Of a stretch of DNA of 15,259 nucleotides, positions 3,344-15,259 are shown in pieces. The notes beneath the pieces are model-generated. The model worked only from the letters and a program-made list of their open reading frames with translations. It had not been told where the DNA came from and ran no database searches. The DNA comes from Patescibacteria group bacterium (GTDB taxonomy: Bacteria > Patescibacteriota > Minisyncoccia > Sungbacterales > GWA2-42-14): assembly GCA_018971745.1 (NCBI GenBank), contig JAGXAD010000004.1:1-15259 (forward strand). The letters run 5' to 3'. The position numbers and the translations under genes are program-made. The stretch's first letter is position 1; each line of letters starts with the position of its first letter.

Positions 3344-3352
3344 ACTTCTTTT

Positions 3353-3381
3353 AGTTTAACCTTTTCTCATAGAAAAAACAA
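3353..3381 (-). promoter_or_regulatory. Probable promoter of the 91-aa gene and pth
   Basis: On the minus strand TTGTTT (3381-3376), a 17-base spacer and TAAACT (3358-3353). The predicted start of transcription falls within about five bases of the ATG at 3343, so the message would be nearly leaderless, as for mfd. Confidence 0.5.
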
Positions 3382-3422
3382 TTTTGATTAGATTTTTCAG
3401 TAGAGGTGTTATCGTAGTGGAA

Positions 3423-3565
3423 GAAAACGGCTTTTGAAAACACTTGAAATTGCTTTTGGCACGGTGTTGTCATAGGGAGCGAAGCGACCTTGACAACCAA
3501 AAGCAATTTCGCGTGAGTTTCAAAACCTCGCAGGGGTTTTGAAACGATTTTCAAAAGCCGTTTTC
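3423..3565 (+). repeat. Branched hairpin element, copy 1
   Basis: Three nested or adjacent stems. The outer arms 3423-3440 and 3548-3565 are perfect 18-base complements (GAAAACGGCTTTTGAAAA and its reverse complement). Inside is hairpin 1, GAAATTGCTTTTGG (3446-3459) with CCAAAAGCAATTTC (3497-3510), plus an inner TTGTCA/TGACAA pair. Next to it is hairpin 2, GTTTCAAAACC (3517-3527) with GGTTTTGAAAC (3535-3545). The fold is a three-way junction. A second copy lies inverted at 6654-6767. No credible gene lies here. The element separates the divergent 91-aa gene and lepB. Confidence 0.85.
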
Positions 3566-3575
3566 CGAAGCGCCC

Positions 3576-3604
3576 TTGCAATGGCAAAAAATTTCATATA
3601 TACT
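3576..3604 (+). promoter_or_regulatory. Promoter of lepB
   Basis: TTGCAA (3576-3581), a 17-base spacer and TATACT (3599-3604). Transcription should start around 3611, at or just before the ATG at 3612. Confidence 0.65.
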
Positions 3605-3611
3605 TATTAAA

Positions 3612-4223
3612 ATGGAGGAAAACAATTTGAAACAAGATACAATTCCCGCGCAAGACCACGATTCAAAATCAGGATTTCTCGTTGAGGCATGGGAAATTTT
3701 GAAAATCGTTTTGGTCGCGGCAATGATTGCGATACCCATTCGCTATTTTATTGCGCAGCCGTTTATCGTGAAGGGCGCGTCCATGGAGCCGAATTTTGAG
3801 GACACGCAATATCTGATTATTGACGAGACCTCGTATTATTTCAGGAGCCCGGAGCGCGGCGAGGTGGTGGTGTTCCGCTATCCGCTGAATCCGAGCGAAT
3901 TTTTCATCAAGCGCGTGATTGGCTTGCCCGGGGAGCGCGTTGAAATTAAAAACGGCAAAGTAATGATTTACAACGCATCGCATCCGGACGGATTTGTTTT
4001 GCAGGAGCCGTATTTGCCGCAGGGTTTGCTTACGAGCGGCGATAAAATAATCCGGCTTTCGGAGCAGCAGTATTTCGTGCTTGGCGACAACCGCGAGCGG
4101 AGTTCCGATTCGCGCGTGTGGGGACCGGTGGACCGCAGGTTCATTACCGGCAGAGTTTTGCTTCGCGCATGGCCTATTTCGGAAATCGGATTGATCAGAG
4201 AACCGAGCCATATGAATCCGTAA
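3612..4223 (+). CDS. lepB: Type I signal peptidase
   Basis: Membrane-anchored serine protease that cleaves signal peptides from Sec-exported proteins. From the ATG at 3612 it is 203 aa. A single N-terminal membrane helix (about 29-50) precedes the S26 family boxes: the box around Ser57 (GASMEPNF, nucleophile), box D FFIKRVIGLPGE with general-base Lys100, and box E VLGDNRERSSDSRVWGPV. The start is ambiguous. The ATG sits right at the predicted transcription start and has no SD, whereas an in-frame TTG at 3627 has GGAGG eight bases upstream and would remove only five residues. It appears to be a single-gene unit, followed by an AT-rich palindromic spacer. It is the natural processor for the exported protein at 10863. 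Confidence 0.95.
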   Translation: MEENNLKQDTIPAQDHDSKSGFLVEAWEILKIVLVAAMIAIPIRYFIAQPFIVKGASMEPNFEDTQYLIIDETSYYFRSPERGEVVVFRYPLNPSEFFIKRVIGLPGERVEIKNGKVMIYNASHPDGFVLQEPYLPQGLLTSGDKIIRLSEQQYFVLGDNRERSSDSRVWGPVDRRFITGRVLLRAWPISEIGLIREPSHMNP

Positions 4224-4242
4224 TGTAAGACACAAAATAGTA

Positions 4243-4393
4243 AAAAGATAATTTTCAATTTTTAATTCTCAATTTTCAATAAATTTTCAATGACCTAATT
4301 TTCAAATAGCGATATTTACAAGAGTTTTGAAAATTAAACATTCAATGAAAATTGTAAATTGGCAACTGAAAATTAATTTGAGCGTCAGCGAAT
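4243..4393. repeat. AT-rich imperfect inverted-repeat spacer before hisS
   Basis: Many words of the TTTTCAA / TTGAAAA type face each other. The clearest perfect pair is TAATTTTCAAA (4296-4306) with TTTGAAAATTA (4326-4336). The spacer ends in TTTGAGCGTCAGCGAAT directly joined to the hisS ATG. It looks like a diverged relative of the spacers at 5825, 6297 and 8088. No SD is present. Confidence 0.6.
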
Positions 4394-5824
4394 ATGCCTA
4401 ACAAAAAACAAAAACTGAAAATATTTCAGACGCCGCGCGGAACGCACGACATTTTGCCGCAGGACCAAAAATATTGGGATCGCATCCGTACGGTTTCGCA
4501 GACGCTTGCGTCGTATTACGGTTTTGAGCGGATTGACACGCCGCACCTTGAATCAACCGATTTGTTTTTGCACACGGTTGGGCCGACTTCCGATATTGTC
4601 GAAAAACAAATGTATTCGTTTAAGACGCGCGGCGGGGACGCTTTGACGCTTCGTCCCGAAGGCACGGCGCCCATTGCGCGATCCTACATTGAAAACGGAT
4701 TTCTGAATTTGCCTCAGCCCGTGAAGCTGTATTACCGCGGCTCGTTTTTTCGGCACGAATCGCCACAGCGCGGCAGATACCGCGAGTTTCACCAATGGGG
4801 GCTTGAATTGCTGGGAGAAGAATCCGCAATCGCGGACGCGGAAATTTTTCAGGTCTGCTCTTTATTTCTGTCCGAGTTGGGGCTGAAAGATATTTTGTTT
4901 TACGTAAACAGCGTGGGGTGCCGCGAATGCCGGCCGAAGTATCGCTCGGCCCTTTCCGGGTATTACCGCTCGCGCGTGCGCGGGCTTTGCAAGGATTGCA
5001 AACGGCGTTATAAAGACAATCCCTTGCGACTTTTGGATTGCAAAGAGGAAAAATGCGTTACGGTAAAAAAATCAGCTCCGCAGATTTTAGACCACTTATG
5101 CGAGGCGTGCAAAAATCATTTTACGGTACTGCTTGAATTTTTGGACGAGATTGGCGTTGCGTACATGTTGAACCCCTACCTCGTGCGCGGTCTTGATTAT
5201 TATTCGCGCACCGTGTTTGAAATTGCAAGCACTTATGTTGCCGCGTCGGAGCCGGAAGTTGCCCGTGAGGCGCTTCCTTCGATCAATGCCGAAAACCGCA
5301 ATGCCGGAGACGAGAAAAAAGAAGAAGATGAGGAAGAAAATGTTGTGACCGAGGTTCCGATTAAAGAAGAAAAAGCCGGCAAAGAGCCGCTTGCGTTAGG
5401 AGGCGGAGGCAGGTATGATTATTTGGTTGAATTGTTGGGCGGCAGGCCTACGCCCGGAGTCGGCATGGCGCTTGGCATGGAGCGGCTTGCGTATGCAATG
5501 AAGCAGCAGCAGGTAAAAATTCCGGCATCGTCGCGGCAAAAATTGTTTTTTGTGCACTTGGGCGAGCTCGCAAAGAAAAAAAGTTTTAAAATTATTGAGA
5601 TGTTGCGGCGCGCGAATATCGCAATCGCGGAATCGCTCGGCAAAGACAGCATTAAGTCGCAGTTAAAGCTTGCGGACAGGGCCGCAAGCGAGTATGCTCT
5701 GATTCTCGGCCAAAAAGAGGCGATTGACGGAACCGTAATTATCCGCGAAATGTCATCCGGCACGCAGGAAACTGTCTTGCAGGAAAAATTGATTGAGATT
5801 TTGAAGCAGAAATTAAGACGATAA
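4394..5824 (+). CDS. hisS: Histidyl-tRNA synthetase with acidic insertion
   Basis: Class II synthetase that charges tRNA-His with histidine. The product is 476 aa, somewhat longer than the usual 420-430. Visible motifs: the start IFQTPRGTHDILP; TLRPEGTAPIAR; motif 2 (FFRHESPQRGRYREFHQ); the insertion domain with cysteine pairs (CRECRP, CKDCKRR, DCKEEKC, CEACKNHF) found in many bacterial HisRS; the HisA motif VRGLDYYSRTVFE (about 263-275); then LGGGGRYDYL, and GVGMALGMERL as motif 3. A C-terminal anticodon-binding domain follows. Between VFEIAS and LGGGGRYDYL lies an extra, strongly acidic/lysine-rich stretch (about residues 280-334, including EKKEEDEEENVV) where most homologues have a short loop. 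It probably forms a disordered surface loop. There is no SD; the ATG follows a GAGCGTCAGCGAAT leader. Confidence 0.97.
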   Translation: MPNKKQKLKIFQTPRGTHDILPQDQKYWDRIRTVSQTLASYYGFERIDTPHLESTDLFLHTVGPTSDIVEKQMYSFKTRGGDALTLRPEGTAPIARSYIENGFLNLPQPVKLYYRGSFFRHESPQRGRYREFHQWGLELLGEESAIADAEIFQVCSLFLSELGLKDILFYVNSVGCRECRPKYRSALSGYYRSRVRGLCKDCKRRYKDNPLRLLDCKEEKCVTVKKSAPQILDHLCEACKNHFTVLLEFLDEIGVAYMLNPYLVRGLDYYSRTVFEIASTYVAASEPEVAREALPSINAENRNAGDEKKEEDEEENVVTEVPIKEEKAGKEPLALGGGGRYDYLVELLGGRPTPGVGMALGMERLAYAMKQQQVKIPASSRQKLFFVHLGELAKKKSFKIIEMLRRANIAIAESLGKDSIKSQLKLADRAASEYALILGQKEAIDGTVIIREMSSGTQETVLQEKLIEILKQKLRR

Positions 5825-5944
5825 ATTCAAAATTCAAATTTCAAAAATCAAAATATAAGGAAAAAAAATTTTTCTTCGGAAAAATTTTTCATCCCAAAAT
5901 TTTACATTTTGACTTTTGCATTTTACATTTGAGCGTCAGCGATT
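5825..5944. repeat. AT-rich palindromic spacer element before the HIT gene
   Basis: Central stem AAAAATTTTTC (5864-5874), TTCG loop, GAAAAATTTTT (5879-5889): an 11-bp stem closed by a C(TTCG)G tetraloop. Outer imperfect arms are TCAAAAATCAAAATATAA on the left and the complementary CATTTTGACTTTTGCATTTT on the right. It ends GAGCGTCAGCGATT followed by the ATG. Same family as 6297-6400 and 8088-8195. Confidence 0.75.
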
Positions 5945-6292
5945 ATGGATTGTATTTTTTGCGCAATTGCGGCAGGGGGAATCGCGTCCGAAACCGTCTA
6001 CGAGGACGCTGATATCAAGGCATTTAAAGACGCCAGTCCTTCGGCGCCGGTGCACATTCTCGTGATTCCGAAAGCGCATATTGAATCCATTGCGCATTTG
6101 AAAGCAAATCACAGCGACATCATTGTTCAATTGATATATCGCGCGAAACAAATCGCCGCGGATAAGGGATTGCGCGGATACAAATTGGTGTTTAACGTCG
6201 GCAGGGAAGGCGGGCAGGTGATTGACCATTTGCATTTGCATTTGCTCGGCGGATGGGGAAACAAGGAGAATCCGGATAAATTTAGAGTTTAA
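5945..6292 (+). CDS. HIT family protein (HINT-like nucleotide hydrolase)
   Basis: A 115-aa histidine-triad protein. HINT-type members hydrolyse nucleoside phosphoramidates or other nucleotide conjugates as cytoplasmic dimers. It starts MDCIFCAIAAGG, with the Cys3/Cys6 pair that often binds zinc in this family. It continues with HILVIPKAHIESI and ends with the HIT motif HLHLHLLGG (His95, His97, His99), followed by a tryptophan. Length and motif order match family expectations. The natural substrate cannot be told from the sequence. It lies between two palindromic spacers and has no SD; the start follows GAGCGTCAGCGATT. Confidence 0.95.
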   Translation: MDCIFCAIAAGGIASETVYEDADIKAFKDASPSAPVHILVIPKAHIESIAHLKANHSDIIVQLIYRAKQIAADKGLRGYKLVFNVGREGGQVIDHLHLHLLGGWGNKENPDKFRV

Positions 6293-6296
6293 CGAT

Positions 6297-6400
6297 AAGT
6301 CAAAATTCAAAAATCAAAAGTCAAAACTATGGTTGGAAAATTTTTCCAAAGAAAAATTTTCTTTCGTTCATTTTGACTTTTGCATTTTGAGTTTTGACTT
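6297..6400. repeat. AT-rich palindromic spacer element before rpsU
   Basis: The left arm at 6297-6328 (AAGTCAAAATTCAAAAATCA then AAAGTCAAAA) pairs with 6370-6400 with few mismatches over about 30 bases. The centre is GAAAATTTTTC (6336-6346), loop CAAA, GAAAAATTTTC (6351-6361), an 11-bp perfect stem. The right arm runs into TTTGAGCAAAGCGAAT and the rpsU ATG. Confidence 0.8.
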
Positions 6401-6414
6401 TGAGCAAAGCGAAT

Positions 6415-6654
6415 ATGGTTTACGTCAAACGAAAAGAACGGGAAACAATCGGTTCAATGCTCCGCCGTTTTACGCGGCGCATTCAGCAGTCGGGCGTGTT
6501 AATCAAGTCCCGCAAGGGACGCTATTTTATCAAGCCGCCGACCAGGCGCGCCAAAAAAGCGCGTGCGCTGAAACGGCTCGTGCTGTTGAAAGAAAAGGAA
6601 AAGCTTGCCAAGCTCGGCAAATTGCCCGAGAAAAAATCGTTCAAGAAAAGATAA
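6415..6654 (+). CDS. rpsU: Small ribosomal subunit protein bS21
   Basis: A 79-aa, very basic protein of the 30S platform near the anti-SD region. It opens MVYVKRKERETIGSMLRRFT, then RRIQQSGVL and a Lys/Arg-rich helical tail, KKARALKRLVLLKEKEKLAK. This is the characteristic bS21 pattern, including the conserved region around LRRFTRRIQQSG. The ATG at 6415 is chosen over the TTG at 6394, which lies in the repeat arm. No SD is present, only the shared GAGC-AAAGCGA leader. The last base of the stop codon is also the first base of the branched hairpin element. The link between bS21 and SD use is noteworthy because many genes here lack an SD (inference). Confidence 0.93.
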   Translation: MVYVKRKERETIGSMLRRFTRRIQQSGVLIKSRKGRYFIKPPTRRAKKARALKRLVLLKEKEKLAKLGKLPEKKSFKKR

Positions 6655-6767
6655 TTTTAAAAAACATCGCCCCGACCCAGCAGTCGGGGCGACTCACCAA
6701 AATTGCTTTTGGTTCTGACCTCGGGTCGGAACACCATGCCAAAAGCAATTTTGAGTGTTTTTAAAAT
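6654..6767 (-). repeat. Branched hairpin element, copy 2 (inverted relative to copy 1)
   Basis: Outer arms are ATTTTAAAAAACA (6654-6666) and TGTTTTTAAAAT (6756-6767). Hairpin 2 is TCGCCCCGAC (6667-6676) with GTCGGGGCGA (6683-6692). Hairpin 1 is AAAATTGCTTTTGG (6699-6712) with CCAAAAGCAATTTT (6739-6752), and inside it GGTTCTGAC pairs with GTCGGAAC (6724-6731). Read on the minus strand it aligns with copy 1: AAAACACT, then AAATTGCTTTTGGCA, GGTGTT, AACCAAAAGCAATTT, GTGAGT. The outer stem and hairpin 2 have different sequences but keep their pairing. The GC-rich hairpin 2 could act as a transcription stop after rpsU, but no T-tract follows. Confidence 0.85.
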
Positions 6768-6795
6768 CATTTTTTCTTTCACTTGGCGTGAAACA

Positions 6796-7263
6796 ATGAA
6801 TCTCAAAGAAAAAATAGCGAGCGACATGAAAGTGGCGATGAAAAACCGTGATGAATTGAAATTGTCCGTGTTGCGGATGCTGCAATCAGCGGTACACAAT
6901 AAGGAAATTGAGAAAAAAGGAAAAACTGGGGGCGGGTCGGGTGAATTGAGCGAAGAAGAAATAATTCTTGTGTTTCGTTCGGAAATAAAAAAGCGCCGCG
7001 ACGCGGCGGCGGGCTTCGCGCAGGGCGGCAGGAAAGAGTCCGCGGAAAAAGAAACGCATGAGGCGGAAATTTTGCAATCATACTTGCCGCAGGAATTATC
7101 GGATGCGGAATTGGAAAAAATCGCGCAAGAAGTCGTTTCCGGAATGGGCGAGGTAAGCATAAAAGATTTTGGCCGCGTGATGGGTGAAGTAATGAAGCGC
7201 GTGAAAGGGCAGGCAAGTGGGGATCGGGTAAGTAGGGCGGTAAAAATAATTCTTGAAAAGTAA
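6796..7263 (+). CDS. GatB/YqeY domain protein
   Basis: A 155-aa YqeY-like protein, related to the helical tail domain of the amidotransferase subunit GatB. It starts MNLKEKIASDMKVAMKNRDE, with the family features KLSVLRMLQSAVHNKEIEK, an EIKKRRDAAAGFAQGGR segment, EAEILQSYLPQELSDAELE and KDFGRVMGEVMKRVKG near the end. These are recognisable YqeY blocks at normal length. The biochemical role is unproven; tRNA-linked amidation is suggested only by homology. The ATG at 6796 is chosen over an upstream TTG at 6703 because the upstream frame runs through the hairpin element. No clear SD is present. The gene ends at a shared bidirectional terminator. Confidence 0.9.
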   Translation: MNLKEKIASDMKVAMKNRDELKLSVLRMLQSAVHNKEIEKKGKTGGGSGELSEEEIILVFRSEIKKRRDAAAGFAQGGRKESAEKETHEAEILQSYLPQELSDAELEKIAQEVVSGMGEVSIKDFGRVMGEVMKRVKGQASGDRVSRAVKIILEK

Positions 7264-7299
7264 AAACGCAGGATGCGATTGTTGCACGCCTGCGTTTTT
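7262..7299. terminator. Bidirectional terminator between convergent genes
   Basis: AAAAACGCAGG (7262-7272) pairs with CCTGCGTTTTT (7289-7299). The terminal A and T runs give a T-tract on both strands. It serves the YqeY-like gene (+) and the 109-aa membrane gene (-). Confidence 0.85.
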
Positions 7300-7319
7300 A
7301 GTCAATGACGCGGATTAAA

Positions 7320-7649
7320 TTACCCTACGCCGAGAAGTTTTGCAATGCCTCCAAAAAAGAGCCAAAAACACCACTCCATTGCATGAAAGCACCACATTAT
7401 TAAAAGTATACAAAATTGGAATGGCCAGAAAAGCGCAAAGAGTATTTGGTCATGGTATAGCGGTACCGGTGTGTTATTCCCGGGTAAGTTTGATACGACA
7501 CCTTTCGCAGACCATACTTGTTGCCAAAATGTTTGTGGCTCGTGCCCAAAAATATAGTTGTGATAATATGTTCCGATAGCCCATCCGACATTGAGATAGA
7601 TCGCACCAGCAACGAGTATCATCGCAAATCGCGTTACCCGATTATTCAT
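7320..7649 (-). CDS. 109-aa membrane protein, unknown
   Basis: Starts MNNRVTRFAMILVAGAIYL, giving a first helix over about residues 7-28. A polar loop (about 29-66, with PQTFWQQVWSAKGVV) precedes a long hydrophobic region (about 68-104) rich in Trp, Phe and Cys (FQFCILLIMWCFHAMEWCFW), probably one or two more helices. No family is recognised. The start is well supported by AAGGAG seven bases before the ATG. It is a single minus-strand gene inside an otherwise plus-strand block, convergent with the YqeY-like gene and divergent from ybeY. A possible short leader reading frame precedes it (7651-7698). Confidence 0.75.
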   Translation of the reverse strand: MNNRVTRFAMILVAGAIYLNVGWAIGTYYHNYIFGHEPQTFWQQVWSAKGVVSNLPGNNTPVPLYHDQILFALFWPFQFCILLIMWCFHAMEWCFWLFFGGIAKLLGVG

Positions 7650-7650
7650 T

Positions 7651-7698
7651 TCAGCTCCTTTTTGGCAGTTTTTCTGCCAGTTTATAAATTAAAGTCAA
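7651..7698 (-). other. Possible 15-codon leader ORF before the 109-aa gene
   Basis: On the minus strand AGGAGG (7711-7706) lies seven bases before a TTG at 7698. That frame encodes 15 residues (starting MTLIYKLAEKLPKRS) and stops one base before the ATG at 7649. A GGCAG/CTGCC hairpin with a five-T loop (7664-7678) falls inside it. The layout resembles a coupled leader peptide, but there is no coding-bias evidence, and the SD-like bases also abut the ybeY start on the other strand. Confidence 0.3.
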
Positions 7699-7711
7699 AG
7701 ACCAACCTCCT

Positions 7712-8122
7712 ATGTTTAGTTTAGCACAATATAAAAAACTTGTCAAGTACTTTCCGCGATACATTAAAAAACGGCTGCCAAAAGAGGTGGCCGTTATTAA
7801 CATTTCCGCAAAAGAATCAAGGCGTCTGAACCGGCTCTACCGTAAAAAAAATAAGCCAACTAATGTGCTTTCCTTCCGCTACGGCAAGGATTACGGTGAA
7901 ATTTTACTATGCTCCGAAGTTATCAAAAAAGAGGCAAAACAAGCAGGCAATTCACAAAATAAGCAGATGACATGGATGCTTATTCATGCTATGCTCCACT
8001 TGGGAGGAGTGCATCACGAGAACGGCGCGCGTCAGGAAAAGAGGTTTGCAAAATTAGAGGGATTGATTTTGAAATGCGTTTTGGCGGAAAATTCAAAATT
8101 CAAAATTCAAAAATCAAAATGA
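7712..8122 (+). CDS. ybeY: Endoribonuclease / rRNA maturation factor YbeY
   Basis: Zinc-dependent endoribonuclease involved in 16S rRNA 3' maturation and ribosome quality control. The 136-aa product shows KPTNVLSFRY, GEILLCSEVI and the metal motif HAMLHLGGVHH (His at positions 1, 5 and 11, as in the H-x3-H-x5-H family pattern). It is short compared with the usual 150-160 aa. The last residues (ENSKFKIQKSK) are encoded by the left arm of the AT-rich spacer element before ftsA, so the C-terminus appears to have been supplied by the repeat. There is no SD; the bases before the ATG read CCTCCT, the opposite of an SD. Confidence 0.93.
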   Translation: MFSLAQYKKLVKYFPRYIKKRLPKEVAVINISAKESRRLNRLYRKKNKPTNVLSFRYGKDYGEILLCSEVIKKEAKQAGNSQNKQMTWMLIHAMLHLGGVHHENGARQEKRFAKLEGLILKCVLAENSKFKIQKSK

Positions 8123-8195
8123 ACGAAAGAAAATTTTTCTGCAAGAAAAATTTTCAATCAAAAATTTTGCATTTTGACTTTTGCATTTTGCATGT
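8088..8195. repeat. AT-rich palindromic spacer element overlapping ybeY and abutting ftsA
   Basis: The left arm has repeated TTCAAAA words and AATCAAAAT (8088-8120). The centre is GAAAATTTTTCT (8129-8140), loop GCA, AGAAAAATTTTC (8144-8155), a 12-bp perfect stem. The right arm ATTTTGCATTTTGACTTTTG continues to the ftsA ATG at 8196. The element carries the ybeY stop codon. Confidence 0.8.
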
Positions 8196-9434
8196 ATGGC
8201 GCGTAACACCATTGCCGCAATTGACATCGGCACGACCGCAATTACCACGGTGGTTGCCGGTACCGCGAACAAGGACCAAAAAATCCGGATTTTAGGCATG
8301 GGTAGAAGCCCGACCTACGGCATGCGCCGGGGTTCGGTTGTTGACATTGATGAAGTTACCGCGTCTATAAAAAAATCCGTGCAGGCCGCGGCAAAAGCCG
8401 CGAACGTAAAAATTTCAAGCGCGATTATCGCGGCATCAGGCACGCATGTCAATTCATTCGTATCTAGAGGCGTGATTGCGGTTGGCAGGGCGGACGGGGA
8501 AATTTCCGAAGGCGACGTGAAACGCGTGCTCTCGGCCGCGGAAGGAGCGATTCCGCGAAATCCCAATCGCGAAGTGATTCACGTCATTCCCAAGGCGTAT
8601 AAAATTGACGGCGAATCCGGCATTGCGGATCCCATCGGCATGGTAGGCATTCGTTTGGAGGTTGAGGCGATTATCATTGACGGCGCAAAATCAGCGATGC
8701 AGAGTTTGATGAAATGCATGGAAGGCGCGGGCGTTGAGGTTGAGGATTTTGTGTTTTCTCCTCTGGCATCGGCCGAAGCCGTGCTCTCGCGCAGGCAAAA
8801 GGAACTTGGCGTGATGCTCCTGGACATCGGCGGAGGCACTTCGGATTTTTCTGTGTTTGAAGAGGGCCGTTTGATTCACGCGGGCGTATTTCCCGTCGGC
8901 GGAAATCACATCACAAGCGACATCGCCATCGTGTTTCAAACCGATGTTGATGTTGCGGAAAAAATAAAATTGAGTTTTGGGCATTCCCTGCCGGATGAAA
9001 TCGCAAAGCGCGAACAAATCAAGCTTGCGGAATTTGTGCCGGATGCCAAAGAAACTTATTCGCATCGCGCGCTTGCCGAAATCATTGAGGCGCGCCTGAA
9101 AGACATTTTTGAACTCGCGCATAAAGAATTGAAAAAAATAAACCGGGCCGGGCTTCTGCCCGCCGGGGTTGTTTTAATCGGCAGAGCTTCGTCAATCCCC
9201 GGCATTGTGGAATTGGCAAAGCGCGAGCTTGAACTGCCGGTGGAACTTGCGTCCGCAACGCAGTCGCCGCATCACGGAAAGCCGGATGAAAAATTATTTG
9301 ATTTACCCGTGGCATCCGGTTTGATTCACTGGCAGATGAACCGCGTGTCCGGGCGAGACCCGTTTTTCTACAATTCAACCGTGGCGCAAGTGGCAAGCAG
9401 CGTGAAAAATTGGCTCCGCATCTTTTTGCCGTAG
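8196..9434 (+). CDS. ftsA: Cell division protein FtsA
   Basis: Actin-like ATPase that anchors FtsZ filaments to the membrane. From the ATG at 8196 it is 412 aa, a normal length. Motifs: phosphate-1 loop AAIDIGTTAITTVVAG near the start; the 1C/SHS2 region (ASGTHVNSFVSRGVIAVGRA, then the EISEGDVKRVLSAA segment); phosphate-2 LLDIGGGTSDFSVFEEG; the adenosine region VVLIGRASSIPGIVELAKR; and a short amphipathic C-terminal helix SVKNWLRIFLP that serves as the membrane-targeting sequence. The in-frame TTG at 8181 belongs to the spacer repeat. No SD is present. It lies upstream of ftsZ, separated by a terminator, so the two may be transcribed separately. Confidence 0.96.
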   Translation: MARNTIAAIDIGTTAITTVVAGTANKDQKIRILGMGRSPTYGMRRGSVVDIDEVTASIKKSVQAAAKAANVKISSAIIAASGTHVNSFVSRGVIAVGRADGEISEGDVKRVLSAAEGAIPRNPNREVIHVIPKAYKIDGESGIADPIGMVGIRLEVEAIIIDGAKSAMQSLMKCMEGAGVEVEDFVFSPLASAEAVLSRRQKELGVMLLDIGGGTSDFSVFEEGRLIHAGVFPVGGNHITSDIAIVFQTDVDVAEKIKLSFGHSLPDEIAKREQIKLAEFVPDAKETYSHRALAEIIEARLKDIFELAHKELKKINRAGLLPAGVVLIGRASSIPGIVELAKRELELPVELASATQSPHHGKPDEKLFDLPVASGLIHWQMNRVSGRDPFFYNSTVAQVASSVKNWLRIFLP

Positions 9435-10862: not shown

Positions 10863-13800
10863 ATGAAAAAATTTATCGCATCAATATCAATGGCGGCAAT
10901 GCTTGCGGCGCCGGTTTTTGCGTTTGCCGACCAAAATTTTGACTTTATTCAGCAACTGCAGGCAAAACTTGAAGCGATACAAGCGCAACTTAACGGATAT
11001 TTGCAACAGCAGCAACAATTACAGCAGCAACAATTACAACAGCAACAATCACAGCAACAGCAACAATCACAGCAGCAACAAACGTTTCAGCAGCAGGCAT
11101 CTTCCGTTTCAGGTTCTTCCGAGTTTCAAAACGGCGATGCCGTTCGTACCGCCGTAACTCTCAATATTCGCTCTTCCGCAGGTTTGTCCGGAACTGTTTT
11201 AGCTAAAGCGCCGACAGGTTCAACCGGCGTTATCCGATGCAATCTTGTTTCCGGAAGCGAATGTCCTGCGTCAGCCAACGGCATGATTTGGTGGTACATT
11301 GATTGGGACAATTCGTCTTTGCCTACCGGCTGGTCTGCGGAAGGAACGTCTGAGGCGACATTTTTGGAAAAAATTGCTTCTTTTGGCGGCACACAGCAGC
11401 AGTCTTCAACTCAGTCGACGCAAACAAACCAATCGACTCAGCAACAGTCCTCAACCCAATCGACCTGGCAGCAGTCCTCATCAAATCAAACCCAATCAAC
11501 CCAACAGCAGTCCGGCGGGCAGTGCACTTTCGGGAAATTATACGCAAGCCAATACACCGACGCCGCTTCAACCATTGCAAGCACTCAAGACGGTGGGTAT
11601 ATCCTAGGTGGCTCGACGAATTTCCGGGATACGCGGGGGGGCTACGCCGATCTCCTGGTCCAAAAAATCGACGCAAACGGCAAAATCAATTGGCAAAAAA
11701 TATTTAATCGCGGGTATTCCGGCACGGGTATTGGTCACGATTTTGGCACGCATGCGTTTCGCGCCGTTGCCTCTCCCGACGGCGGCTCTCTTGCGGCAAC
11801 GAATATTTCCAACACCACTTACGACAGCCAAGGATTAATCGTCAAAGGAATGGGTCTTGACCTCCTGCTCGTGAAGCTTGATTCATCGGGCGCCGTGCAA
11901 TGGCAGAAATCATACGGGAGACAAGACGGCGCACAGAATTATCAATACCCGCTTTTCTTGCAGAAGGTCTCCGGTGGCTACGTCGTTGCGGGGCAAACAT
12001 GGAAGAGCAACATGTATAATGTGAGAGATTCATTTTACAGCACCTTTGTCCTCAAAGTTGACGACCAGGGGAATATCGTCTGGCAGAAGCGCCTTGGAAC
12101 CGAGGAAGGGGCGAGATTCACTTCGTTTGCCCAGGCCCCGGACGGAGGATATCTCTTGACGGTGGGCACGCTCGTGTATATTAATGGCTTGAGCTATCAG
12201 GTAGAGGGAACGGTAATTGCGAAGCTTGATGCTTCGGGAAACATCCAATGGACAAAAGCGTATGCAACTAAAACCGATTGGGCCAGTTCTCCAACGGCTG
12301 ATGGCGGAGCGATAGTCGTGGGACGCGCCCCTTACTTCGTTTTTGGTTCAAATCCAACATATCTCGCGGCAATTGACGTGTACAAGCTGGATTCTTCCGG
12401 CGCCATCCAGTGGAGCAAGGAGTATTCGTCGAATGCCCCAAGCGCGTTCGACAAGCCCGATGCCGTCAAGCAGACGAAGGACGGAGGATACGCGGTGCTC
12501 GGCGACACCCGCGACGATATCCTCCTTCTCAAACTGAACGAAGGAGGAGACATCGTGTGGCAGAAGGCCTATTCCAGCGGTCCGGTCTGGGACTCGATTG
12601 GGTATGAAGACCCGGCCGATTTCATTCCGACTCAAGACGGAGGGTATGCCATTGTGGGCCAGACCAATCGTTCCGCAAAACGCGGCAACCCTTGGGCAGG
12701 AAATACCGAAGACATCCTTGCTTTCAAAGTGGACGCTTCCGGAAACATCAGCTTCTCCGCGAGCGGTTGGAGCGCCAAAGACACCGACCTTACGGCATCC
12801 GCTCCGCTGGTTCCTCCGGTTTCCCCGAAGAGCGGAGGAGTCTTGGTAGATGATTCCTTTGACCTTTCGCCCTCCTCCTTCTCCGCGAATGTCAGCGATG
12901 CGACTCTGAGCGAAAAGGACTTGAGCCAGGGTACCTGCGGCACGGGACAACAGTCATCGCAGACTTCAACGCAAACTGCTCAGCAGGCGCAGTCGTCTGC
13001 CGTGCAATCAACATCCGCGACATTGCCCGTATTTTCCATCTCTCCAGCCATCGTTCAAAAAGGCAGTGGCGCGTCCGTTACCGCCCTGCTTACCAACGCA
13101 CCTCCGAATGCAACCGTTAAAATTTATTGCCGAGACCCGCTCGGGCAGGTTTGCGACGATGCCGCGTCATACAGCGCTGATTCAAGCGGCAGGTTCTCCA
13201 TCACCTATTCCCCGACAATCATAAACGGTTTGATGACGGGCACCTACGCCAGCTGGATGACAGTCAACGGCGCGCAGTCCAATACCGCTTCGCTGACTGT
13301 TATTGCGCTTTCGTCTTCGCTTCCCGACCTTATCATTTCAGCAGGACCCTCACTTAATTCCGGAACACTTGTCGCGGGGCAAACCCTTACTTTCAAGGCA
13401 ACCGTCAAGAACCAAGGAAGCGCAACTGCATCCGGCACCTTCAACAATCGTTTCCGCATTGATTTGACTAATAACGGCATTGACGAGAATGACCCGGATC
13501 TTCCGGCGCTGAACAGCGCTTCTAATCTTGCGCCCGGAGCTACTCAACAGGTTGTTTCTCCGGGCTGGACCGCAACTGCCGGCACGCATCGGCTTTACGC
13601 CTGCGCCGATCGCCCAGGCAATCTCATTGCTGAATCCGACGACACCAACAATTGCGCTTTTGGCGATACTTTTACAGTAAACGATACCGTCTCCGCCAAA
13701 CCTAATATTGTTGTCATTATGACGGACGACCAAGAGGATGCTCGGGCGGGGGATGAAGCATCATTGGCGGTGATGCCGAAGACCAAAAATTTACTTGTTG

Positions 13801-15259
13801 ATCGCGGCACTCGGTTTCTTAACAGTTTTACCGATTATTCGCTTTGTTGCCCGAGCCGGTCCACTTTTATGACCGGCCAGTTTTCTCACAATCATGGCGT
13901 TTATTCAAATATGTTTCCCGACGGCGGTTATGAAAAATTTAAACCGTCAGAAGGAAATTCTCTTCCGGTTTGGCTTAAAAACGGTGGTTACGATACGGCG
14001 TTAATTGGGAAGTATCTTAATCAATATTGGCCGCGGCCTGACGGGAAACCAATTCCCCCGCCGGGCTGGGATCGCTGGCTTCCTTTTCAGGAAAATTGCT
14101 ATTTCAACTGCAGTTACGGCGATAACGGTTCGGTGGTGAATTTCGGATCCTCCGATTATTCTACTGATGTTATAGCTAATAAATCCGTTGAATTTATAAC
14201 AACTCGCTCCAATTCTTCGAAGCCGTTCTTTATGTGGGTTACTCCGATTGCTCCTCACGGCAGTCTCGGTTACGGCCGTCCAGAAGCCGCACCGCGCCAC
14301 AGCGGTCTTTTTTCCTCCCTTCTTCTTCCCGAGCCCCCTTCGTTCAATGAAACTGATGTTTCTGATAAACCGTTCAACATACGCAACCGTTCCTCTTTTG
14401 ATCAGGCAACCATTGACAGGATTGCTAAGACATTCAGGGCAAGGCAAGAAACATATCTTGCGGTTGATGATCTCGTGGAAAAAATAGTGTCCGCGCTTAA
14501 GACCGCCGGGAAATTAGAAAATACGGTGATCATATTTACTTCCGATAACGGATGGATGTCGGGCGAACATCGCATTGAGTTTGGGAAACGAATTATGTAC
14601 GAAGAATCGGCTCGCGTGCCTTTGGTAATGGAAGGGCCTGGTATTCCCGCCGGCCAGACGCGTACGCAATTGGTCAGTAACGTCGATCTTCCCGCAACTA
14701 TTTTGGATTTCGCAGGGGTGGCATCAGGAAGAGTGCCTGACGGAAAGTCCCTTATTCCACTCCTTAATAATTCCGCAATGCCATGGCGAAGCGCTTTGCT
14801 CATGCAAGGAGTTTACGGCGGCGAAGTGCTGAAACCGGGCCGCTACACGGCGGTGCGCACGAATAAATTTCTTTATGCGGAACACACATATTCTGACGGG
14901 TCTGCTTCTGAAAAAGAACTTTACGATCTTGCCGCAGATCCTTACGAACTTGCGAGCAAACACGGTGATTCTTTGTACGCGCCAGTACAGGCGGCTTTGC
15001 AAAATATTCTTTCAAGGTTGAAAGCATGTGCGGGTTTAAGTTGTTGGGCTACTGATCAGGAGCCGTCCCAACCCGCGCTTCCTGACCTTATCATCTCCGT
15101 TCCTCCGTCCGTCAATTCCGGAACCTTGGTCGCGGGGCAAACCATTACCTTCAAAGCCACGGTTAAAAACCAAGGCAATGCCACCGCATCCGGCACCTTC
15201 AACAATCGTTTCCGCATTGACATTAACAACAACGGCGGCATTGATGATGGAGATCCGGA
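10863..15259 (+). CDS. Giant exported multidomain sulfatase (propeller, CARDB), 3' end beyond window
   Basis: The frame from the ATG at 10863 has no stop to the window end (1465 codons). Order: signal peptide MKKFIASISMAAMLAAPVFA (1-20, cleavage near FAFA-DQ); Gln-rich, possibly coiled segment (about 30-80); SH3b-like domain (about 88-165); Ser/Thr/Gln linker (176-220); seven DGGY-type propeller blades (marks at residues 243, 306, 370, 427, 480, 540, 592), each followed by a K(L/V/I)DxxGxIxW-like strand; second linker (about 695-718); Ig-like domain (about 720-815); CARDB (820-940); sulfatase (946-1385); second CARDB from 1406. The sulfatase has PNIVVIMTDDQ (Asp955, Asp956), LCCPSRSTFMTG with Cys995 as the formylglycine site, KYLNQYW, and SDNGWMSGEH (Asp1228, Asn1229). 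It most resembles N-acetylglucosamine-6-sulfatase/arylsulfatase types by eye; the substrate is unknown. It is probably surface-bound or secreted and cleaves sulfate esters on glycans. Confidence 0.88.
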   Translation, partial: MKKFIASISMAAMLAAPVFAFADQNFDFIQQLQAKLEAIQAQLNGYLQQQQQLQQQQLQQQQSQQQQQSQQQQTFQQQASSVSGSSEFQNGDAVRTAVTLNIRSSAGLSGTVLAKAPTGSTGVIRCNLVSGSECPASANGMIWWYIDWDNSSLPTGWSAEGTSEATFLEKIASFGGTQQQSSTQSTQTNQSTQQQSSTQSTWQQSSSNQTQSTQQQSGGQCTFGKLYASQYTDAASTIASTQDGGYILGGSTNFRDTRGGYADLLVQKIDANGKINWQKIFNRGYSGTGIGHDFGTHAFRAVASPDGGSLAATNISNTTYDSQGLIVKGMGLDLLLVKLDSSGAVQWQKSYGRQDGAQNYQYPLFLQKVSGGYVVAGQTWKSNMYNVRDSFYSTFVLKVDDQGNIVWQKRLGTEEGARFTSFAQAPDGGYLLTVGTLVYINGLSYQVEGTVIAKLDASGNIQWTKAYATKTDWASSPTADGGAIVVGRAPYFVFGSNPTYLAAIDVYKLDSSGAIQWSKEYSSNAPSAFDKPDAVKQTKDGGYAVLGDTRDDILLLKLNEGGDIVWQKAYSSGPVWDSIGYEDPADFIPTQDGGYAIVGQTNRSAKRGNPWAGNTEDILAFKVDASGNISFSASGWSAKDTDLTASAPLVPPVSPKSGGVLVDDSFDLSPSSFSANVSDATLSEKDLSQGTCGTGQQSSQTSTQTAQQAQSSAVQSTSATLPVFSISPAIVQKGSGASVTALLTNAPPNATVKIYCRDPLGQVCDDAASYSADSSGRFSITYSPTIINGLMTGTYASWMTVNGAQSNTASLTVIALSSSLPDLIISAGPSLNSGTLVAGQTLTFKATVKNQGSATASGTFNNRFRIDLTNNGIDENDPDLPALNSASNLAPGATQQVVSPGWTATAGTHRLYACADRPGNLIAESDDTNNCAFGDTFTVNDTVSAKPNIVVIMTDDQEDARAGDEASLAVMPKTKNLLVDRGTRFLNSFTDYSLCCPSRSTFMTGQFSHNHGVYSNMFPDGGYEKFKPSEGNSLPVWLKNGGYDTALIGKYLNQYWPRPDGKPIPPPGWDRWLPFQENCYFNCSYGDNGSVVNFGSSDYSTDVIANKSVEFITTRSNSSKPFFMWVTPIAPHGSLGYGRPEAAPRHSGLFSSLLLPEPPSFNETDVSDKPFNIRNRSSFDQATIDRIAKTFRARQETYLAVDDLVEKIVSALKTAGKLENTVIIFTSDNGWMSGEHRIEFGKRIMYEESARVPLVMEGPGIPAGQTRTQLVSNVDLPATILDFAGVASGRVPDGKSLIPLLNNSAMPWRSALLMQGVYGGEVLKPGRYTAVRTNKFLYAEHTYSDGSASEKELYDLAADPYELASKHGDSLYAPVQAALQNILSRLKACAGLSCWATDQEPSQPALPDLIISVPPSVNSGTLVAGQTITFKATVKNQGNATASGTFNNRFRIDINNNGGIDDGDP
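11004..11098 (+). repeat. CAG/CAA glutamine-codon repeat tract
   Basis: Near-tandem 12-18-base units of CAG and CAA codons broken by TTA or TCA encode runs such as LQQQQQLQQQQLQQQQSQQ. All units are multiples of three, so slippage would change tract length without breaking the frame. Confidence 0.8.
13320..13498 (+). repeat. CARDB-encoding repeat, copy 1
   Basis: Encodes LPDLIIS, then NSGTLVAGQTLTFKATVKNQ and ASGTFNNRFRID, the start of a CARDB-type adhesion/Ig fold. It matches 15078-15259 at DNA level, including a 35-base identical block (13428-13462 against 15186-15220). The offset is 1758 bases, in frame. Confidence 0.85.
15078..15259 (+). repeat. CARDB-encoding repeat, copy 2 (cut by window end)
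   Basis: Second copy, starting at residue 1406 directly after the sulfatase domain. Protein and DNA are close to copy 1, with one extra Gly codon in the NNGGIDDGD loop. It continues past the window edge. Confidence 0.85.

Follow-up and report, generated by a model that had tools for sequence, protein, structure and literature searches.

A sulfatase frame behind ftsZ

The window analysed here, 15,259 nucleotides in full, is one whole contig (C132) of a Patescibacteria genome bin (G000) that comprises 842 kb in 190 contigs, with 89% completeness and 3.9% contamination. Among its genes are mfd, pth, a signal peptidase gene, hisS, a HIT protein gene, yqeY, ybeY, ftsA and ftsZ. At 173 bases past ftsZ, an ATG at 10863 starts an open frame for a large multi-domain sulfatase, whose coordinates had been given correctly in a first-pass annotation of the same DNA. 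The frame and its parts are as follows.

10863..15257, forward strand: multi-domain sulfatase open frame, 1465 aa, running without a stop up to the contig end
13701..15023, forward strand: S1 sulfatase domain, residues 947-1387, its C-terminal part being SGSH_C
13845..13859, forward strand: C-C-P-S-R motif, residues 995-999, with residue 995 the predicted nucleophile Cys
10863..10928, forward strand: signal peptide, residues 1-22, ending in AFA, by eye from the translation
10929..11132, forward strand: coil and glutamine-rich stretch, residues 23-90, from the sequence
11139..11372, forward strand: weak SH3b-like domain, residues 93-170, SH3_3 E 0.067, under the cut-off
11517..12755, forward strand: seven-bladed beta-propeller, residues 219-631
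13080..13304, forward strand: weak Ig-like stretch, residues 740-813 as scanned, Big_6 E 0.076
13323..13655, forward strand: first CARDB domain, residues 821-931, Pfam PF07705
15075..15257, forward strand: beginning of a second CARDB domain, residues 1405-1465, truncated at the contig end, by Pfam

The sulfatase domain scores 170 bits against PF00884 (cut-off 25; E 5e-49). Its motif cysteine (residue 995, column C181 of alignment A2) is invariant over 16 rows, and the Asp, Asn, Lys and His residues that we take to be metal-binding and catalytic all fall in columns of the same alignment that are invariant or at least 90% conserved. The C-C-P-S-R at 995-999 agrees with the [CS]-x-P-x-R motif that defines S1 sulfatases (PMC5066984). 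The closest solved sequence is 5g2v, a bacterial N-acetylglucosamine-6-sulfatase, while 6hr5 (S1_25) ranks first by fold; SulfAtlas subfamily S1_11 is a candidate placement. The first-pass annotation had considered that a structural model might reveal a loss of active-site geometry; at the level of the fold, the predicted sulfatase is intact and the catalytic residues are kept.

The non-sulfatase share of the visible protein amounts to two thirds. CARDB is matched in two stretches at 76.6 bits, over its cut-off of 22.7, and the second copy is identical to the first at 128 of 161 aligned DNA positions. The SH3_3 match is weak (13.8 bits vs a cut-off of 27), and three homologous segments reach 15.1-21.2 bits (E 0.00033-0.027), all likewise below the cut-off. 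Overall, the anatomy and the intact catalytic residues are established. The earlier proposal of an exported S1 sulfatase joined to a propeller and to CARDB-, Ig- and SH3b-type modules in a small-genome lineage is borne out, with the sulfatase and CARDB domains over their Pfam cut-offs and the SH3_3 match below its own. Binding to a sulfated polymer or host surface, and a part in attachment or scavenging, which that annotation also proposed, are putative roles.

Relatives and genomic origin

Relatives were sought with the whole protein in 142 genomes and with PF00884 in a larger set of 383 class genomes, the genomes of relatives measuring 0.4-1.5 Mb. The sole close sulfatase among the 142 genomes is found in G002, a member of the same family listed as 100% complete. 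It is 50% identical, in a frame of 1715 aa with its 5' end cut, and six other genomes have pieces that are 31-36% identical. In this G002 frame (G002:C33; L069:2-5149), a single polypeptide has the sulfatase between a PD40/TolB-type propeller and a GH5-like stretch (below cut-off, Cellulase E 1.6e-4), along with repeated stretches.

PF00884 exceeds 60 bits in 24 of the 383 genomes; weaker matches, presumably phosphoglycerate mutases judging by match position (200-300) and frame length, were kept outside the motif count. An intact Cys-type S1 enzyme is encoded in six of these 24 (G000, G002, G174, G206, G316 and G328). In each of these six genomes, all taken here as members of the Candidate Phyla Radiation (CPR) in view of small genome size and the first-pass annotation, the closest enzyme retains an intact C-x-P-x-R motif, for example as C-C-P-T-R in G316 and as C-C-P-D-R in the main copy of G206, whose second copy reads C-A-A-S-R. 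The Cys-type enzyme (C-R-P-S-L) of a seventh genome, G140, is divided between two frames, and this genome was left out of the Cys-type counts. The query found 12 of the other 17 genomes: ten have Thr or Ser without the motif Arg, G083 has Cys without Arg and G264 has gaps; the five that it did not reach (G248, G219, G375, G353 and G085) are excluded from the motif survey. Most PF00884 matches in the class are other than Cys-type; besides the weak ones, others are Thr- or Ser-type relatives. Two Thr-type relatives (L073:6696-9453 in G015 and L074:6911-8209 in G105) lie near frames that look glycosyltransferase-like by eye, and are possibly surface-glycan enzymes.

Fusion of the sulfatase to binding-type modules recurs in four of the six Cys-type genomes. 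The 2405-aa protein of G206 carries CARDB, PG_binding, sulfatase and He_PIG domains and that of G174 carries LamG, sulfatase and PG_binding, while G316 and G328 have short versions. The first-pass annotation, which knew of no description of this architecture, therefore overstated its novelty; the arrangement is unusual, not singular.

In a tree of 29 sulfatases, the eight CPR rows require three changes. With L165, L118 and L121 removed (seven CPR rows of 26), two changes are required and a single CPR clade is not rejected (approximately unbiased test, p-AU 0.26). In both trees, the sulfatase of a Methyloceanibacter bin (L110, 2843-5029) sits beside the window sequence among the CPR rows with modest support, reflecting either transfer or mis-binning. 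Another homologue lies on a 4639-bp contig (L114) binned as a Diapherotrites archaeon, whose genome has no match to the formylglycine-generating enzyme (FGE). Its sulfatase neighbours a YgbB (IspF) gene, which belongs to a bacterial pathway, so the contig is probably mis-binned and this DPANN case was set aside.

The frame itself might have come from another organism that has FGE, through a chimeric contig or mis-binning. A bin in 190 contigs with 3.9% contamination allows for this, as does the codon usage of the sulfatase domain, which correlates less well with six core genes of the contig than that of the N-terminal half (0.73 vs 0.90). In addition, the 1.5 kb after ftsZ hold no such frame in any of ten relatives compared, from 25, with the window's own locus (0/10), so synteny lends no support to linkage across 10.7 kb, where the earlier annotation had placed the possible junction. 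However, residues 1-55 are 58% identical to a second frame of the bin, on contig C5, and the bin also encodes, on G000:C127, an exported protein of 1151 aa that shares 61% identity with residues 757-940, the Ig and CARDB part. Residues 76-200 match a segment of G005:C42 at 47% identity, with the SH3b part recurring in G005 and G002 of the same family. Other genes of the bin correlate at 0.64-0.95 (the core genes being part of the reference), with three C5 frames at 0.64-0.82 and pth at 0.70, whereas homologues from Lentzea, a Solirubrobacteraceae bin and the Methyloceanibacter bin reach 0.39-0.55, although the L114 homologue reaches 0.73. A foreign origin is accordingly judged very unlikely, and a chimera at 10.7 kb is unlikely given the shared N-terminus and CARDB part and the codon usage. 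As to mobile or viral origin, the six peptide patterns of P0001 matched no stretch of viral contigs, and the plasmid relatives, 549 records, are every one below 60% identity.

Similar N-termini were seen by eye in modular proteins from different families of the class: L071:3125-4765 (G000:C5), L072:1070-3337 and 3347-5185 (G005:C42), and L176:1479-3419, 3412-5880 and 5907-9107 (G174). They share a short LxKE-like and VG[KR] stretch followed by one hydrophobic segment, which looks like a common surface-anchoring module. Also on G000:C5, a GH26-like enzyme is seemingly split over two frames (L071:4895-6565 and 6605-8443), the first of which carries PG_binding_1 as well as a coil and a signal peptide resembling those of the window protein.

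Maturation and function

In S1 sulfatases, the Cys or Ser of the motif is converted to formylglycine (PMC5066984). The maturation of the Cys-type enzymes is a matter beyond what the first-pass annotation saw, and the absence of a detectable maturase is a point worth testing. The FGE family, PF03781, has no match in G000. Across the class it is matched by 20 of 383 genomes, with E values of 1e-44 or lower in six, and the six Cys-type genomes all lie outside these 20. The anaerobic sulfatase-maturating enzyme (anSME; TIGR03942) has no match at E 1e-3 in these six or in G140, where an FGE match was likewise not found. Radical SAM proteins (PF04055) have no match in G000, one in G002, of the B12-binding type, and 12 altogether in G174, G206, G316 and G328, counted without sorting by type. 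The reverse case also occurs: of the six class genomes with strong FGE-family matches (L062, L153, L154, L155, L063 and L156), five have nothing in the 383-genome set that matches PF00884 at E 0.001, and the sixth, G375, has a match that lies outside the motif survey.

As a control, PF03781 was counted in 23 non-CPR genomes with sulfatase loci, leaving out three propeller-only loci and counting L114 as a control without FGE. It is matched in 21 of these vs none of the six CPR genomes (Fisher p 6e-5), a contrast drawn from few and related genomes, with two controls also without FGE, and inflated by the non-FGE relatives within the family and by the larger genomes of most controls. Narrower control sets give p 9e-5 (the 21 controls whose motif was seen, 19 matching) and 0.007 (ten controls of at most 2.1 Mb, eight matching). 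A diverged FGE could escape the search. The chance that FGE was lost to incompleteness in all six genomes is about 3e-8, assuming one copy each, independence and 99% completeness for G002.

The gene product is probably an exported S1-family sulfatase, likely associated with the cell wall or surface, that acts on sulfate esters of extracellular glycans. Its signal peptide would direct export through Sec, and the coil and SH3b-like region may anchor it at the wall. Judging by their domain types, the most likely task of the propeller, Ig-like and CARDB modules is to bind a glycan or a protein and bring the sulfatase to this ligand, and the sulfatase domain would take sulfate esters off an extracellular glycan. 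Since the searches found neither FGE nor anSME in G000 or in five related genomes that encode the same enzyme, Cys995 would work either in unmodified form, at a reduced rate, or after conversion by another system. There is precedent for both routes: a choline sulfatase made wholly without formylglycine turns over repeatedly at a low rate, and in E. coli such motifs are converted to varying extents by machinery not yet identified (PMC6189696). Either could apply to the window enzyme.

Several points weigh against this interpretation. The 3' end of the frame is missing, and no glycan-utilisation genes were recognised upstream, where ftsA, ftsZ and other housekeeping genes lie, the downstream side being beyond the contig end. 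The structure model is weak for the propeller and unreliable for the CARDB part (block pLDDT 23-40), and the ligand binding ascribed to these modules is read from domain type. NCBIfam sulfatase equivalogs score well short of their cut-offs and therefore point to no particular substrate. Given no FGE or anSME match, the enzyme may also be poorly active or inactive.

This last point leads to an unlikely alternative, in which the protein is mainly an adhesin whose sulfatase domain, left unmodified, binds sulfated glycans and turns over little or not at all. The missing maturase matches in six genomes with intact Cys-type enzymes would suit it, as would a sulfatase that makes up only one third of the visible protein. 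However, CPR sequences with just 34-49% identity to that of the window retain the catalytic and metal-binding residues, which suggests selection for catalysis, and repeated turnover is possible for a Cys sulfatase without the modification (PMC6189696). Alternatively, an unrecognised maturase could convert Cys995 to formylglycine, as a third route beside FGE and anSME. This is possible but doubtful; it overlaps with the favoured interpretation of an exported, active sulfatase, being one of its two branches, so that the likelihoods given here overlap as well. The PF03781 contrast, the intact C-x-P-x-R motifs and the E. coli precedent (PMC6189696) speak for it. Against it, an all-vs-all comparison of frames within the fetched stretches found no neighbour gene common to the CPR sulfatases as a candidate maturase; besides sulfatases, it paired a few exported or repeat-type modular proteins and, weakly, one G002 frame with a G316 frame, methyltransferase-like by eye. 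The inflation of the contrast also counts against a third route, as do radical SAM proteins in four of the six genomes, their identity only partly sorted, and the residual activity of M. tuberculosis without FGE, which was attributed to other sulfatase types (PMC3141025).

More broadly, a small-genome, presumably host-attached lineage may use exported Cys-type S1 sulfatases on interchangeable binding or glycosidase modules without the known formylglycine-forming enzymes, through an undiscovered maturase or native cysteine catalysis, a tentative generalisation held at less than even confidence. If true, natural Cys-type sulfatases are kept by selection in genomes without a known activating enzyme. 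These small, defined genomes would then be places to seek a formylglycine-forming activity like that of E. coli (PMC6189696), or unmodified cysteine sulfatases used in nature. CPR bacteria would also gain a concrete, testable surface enzyme for sulfated glycans, perhaps of a host or algal matrix.

Comparison with known systems

Sulfatases in CPR are not new, because more than 10 sulfatase genes per bin have been reported for a set of bins with Ca. Nealsonbacteria, of the Patescibacteria, among them (PMC7887784). Titles and abstract openings yielded no literature on FGE-less sulfatases in CPR, weak evidence of absence with subscription papers and preprints outside that scope. Very large adhesion-type proteins are already known in CPR, and large surface proteins have been proposed for another putative symbiont (PMC6792436). 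For example, the giant surface proteins of Vampirococcus lugosii are likewise very large CPR membrane proteins with adhesion-type domains, although the passages concerned make no mention of a sulfatase (PMC8080830).

Among characterised enzymes, the Bacteroides sulfatases BT4656 (5g2v) and BT3177 (7p24) are chains of about 500 residues as compared, whereas the window sulfatase is part of a protein of 1465 aa or more; where the window has C-C-P-S-R, the solved 5g2v chain has S-G-P-S-R. Sulfatases of actinomycetes (L104-L109 and L111-L113, from Lentzea, Rhodococcus, Nonomuraea, Kibdelosporangium and others) share 42-45% identity over the sulfatase domain and the L-C-C-P-S-R sequence. Unlike the window protein, they occur in frames of 501-717 aa and in genomes with FGE-family matches (9/9). 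CylK (7roo) is a Friedel-Crafts alkylating enzyme, and the window protein, in a low-confidence model, gives no sign of such chemistry. In FA22250 of Formosa agariphila (6hr5, S1_25), the sulfatase module is partnered by a GH78 rhamnosidase, in contrast to the propeller and CARDB domains of the window protein. The G002 relative, with its GH5-like stretch after the sulfatase, is nearer to FA22250 in plan.
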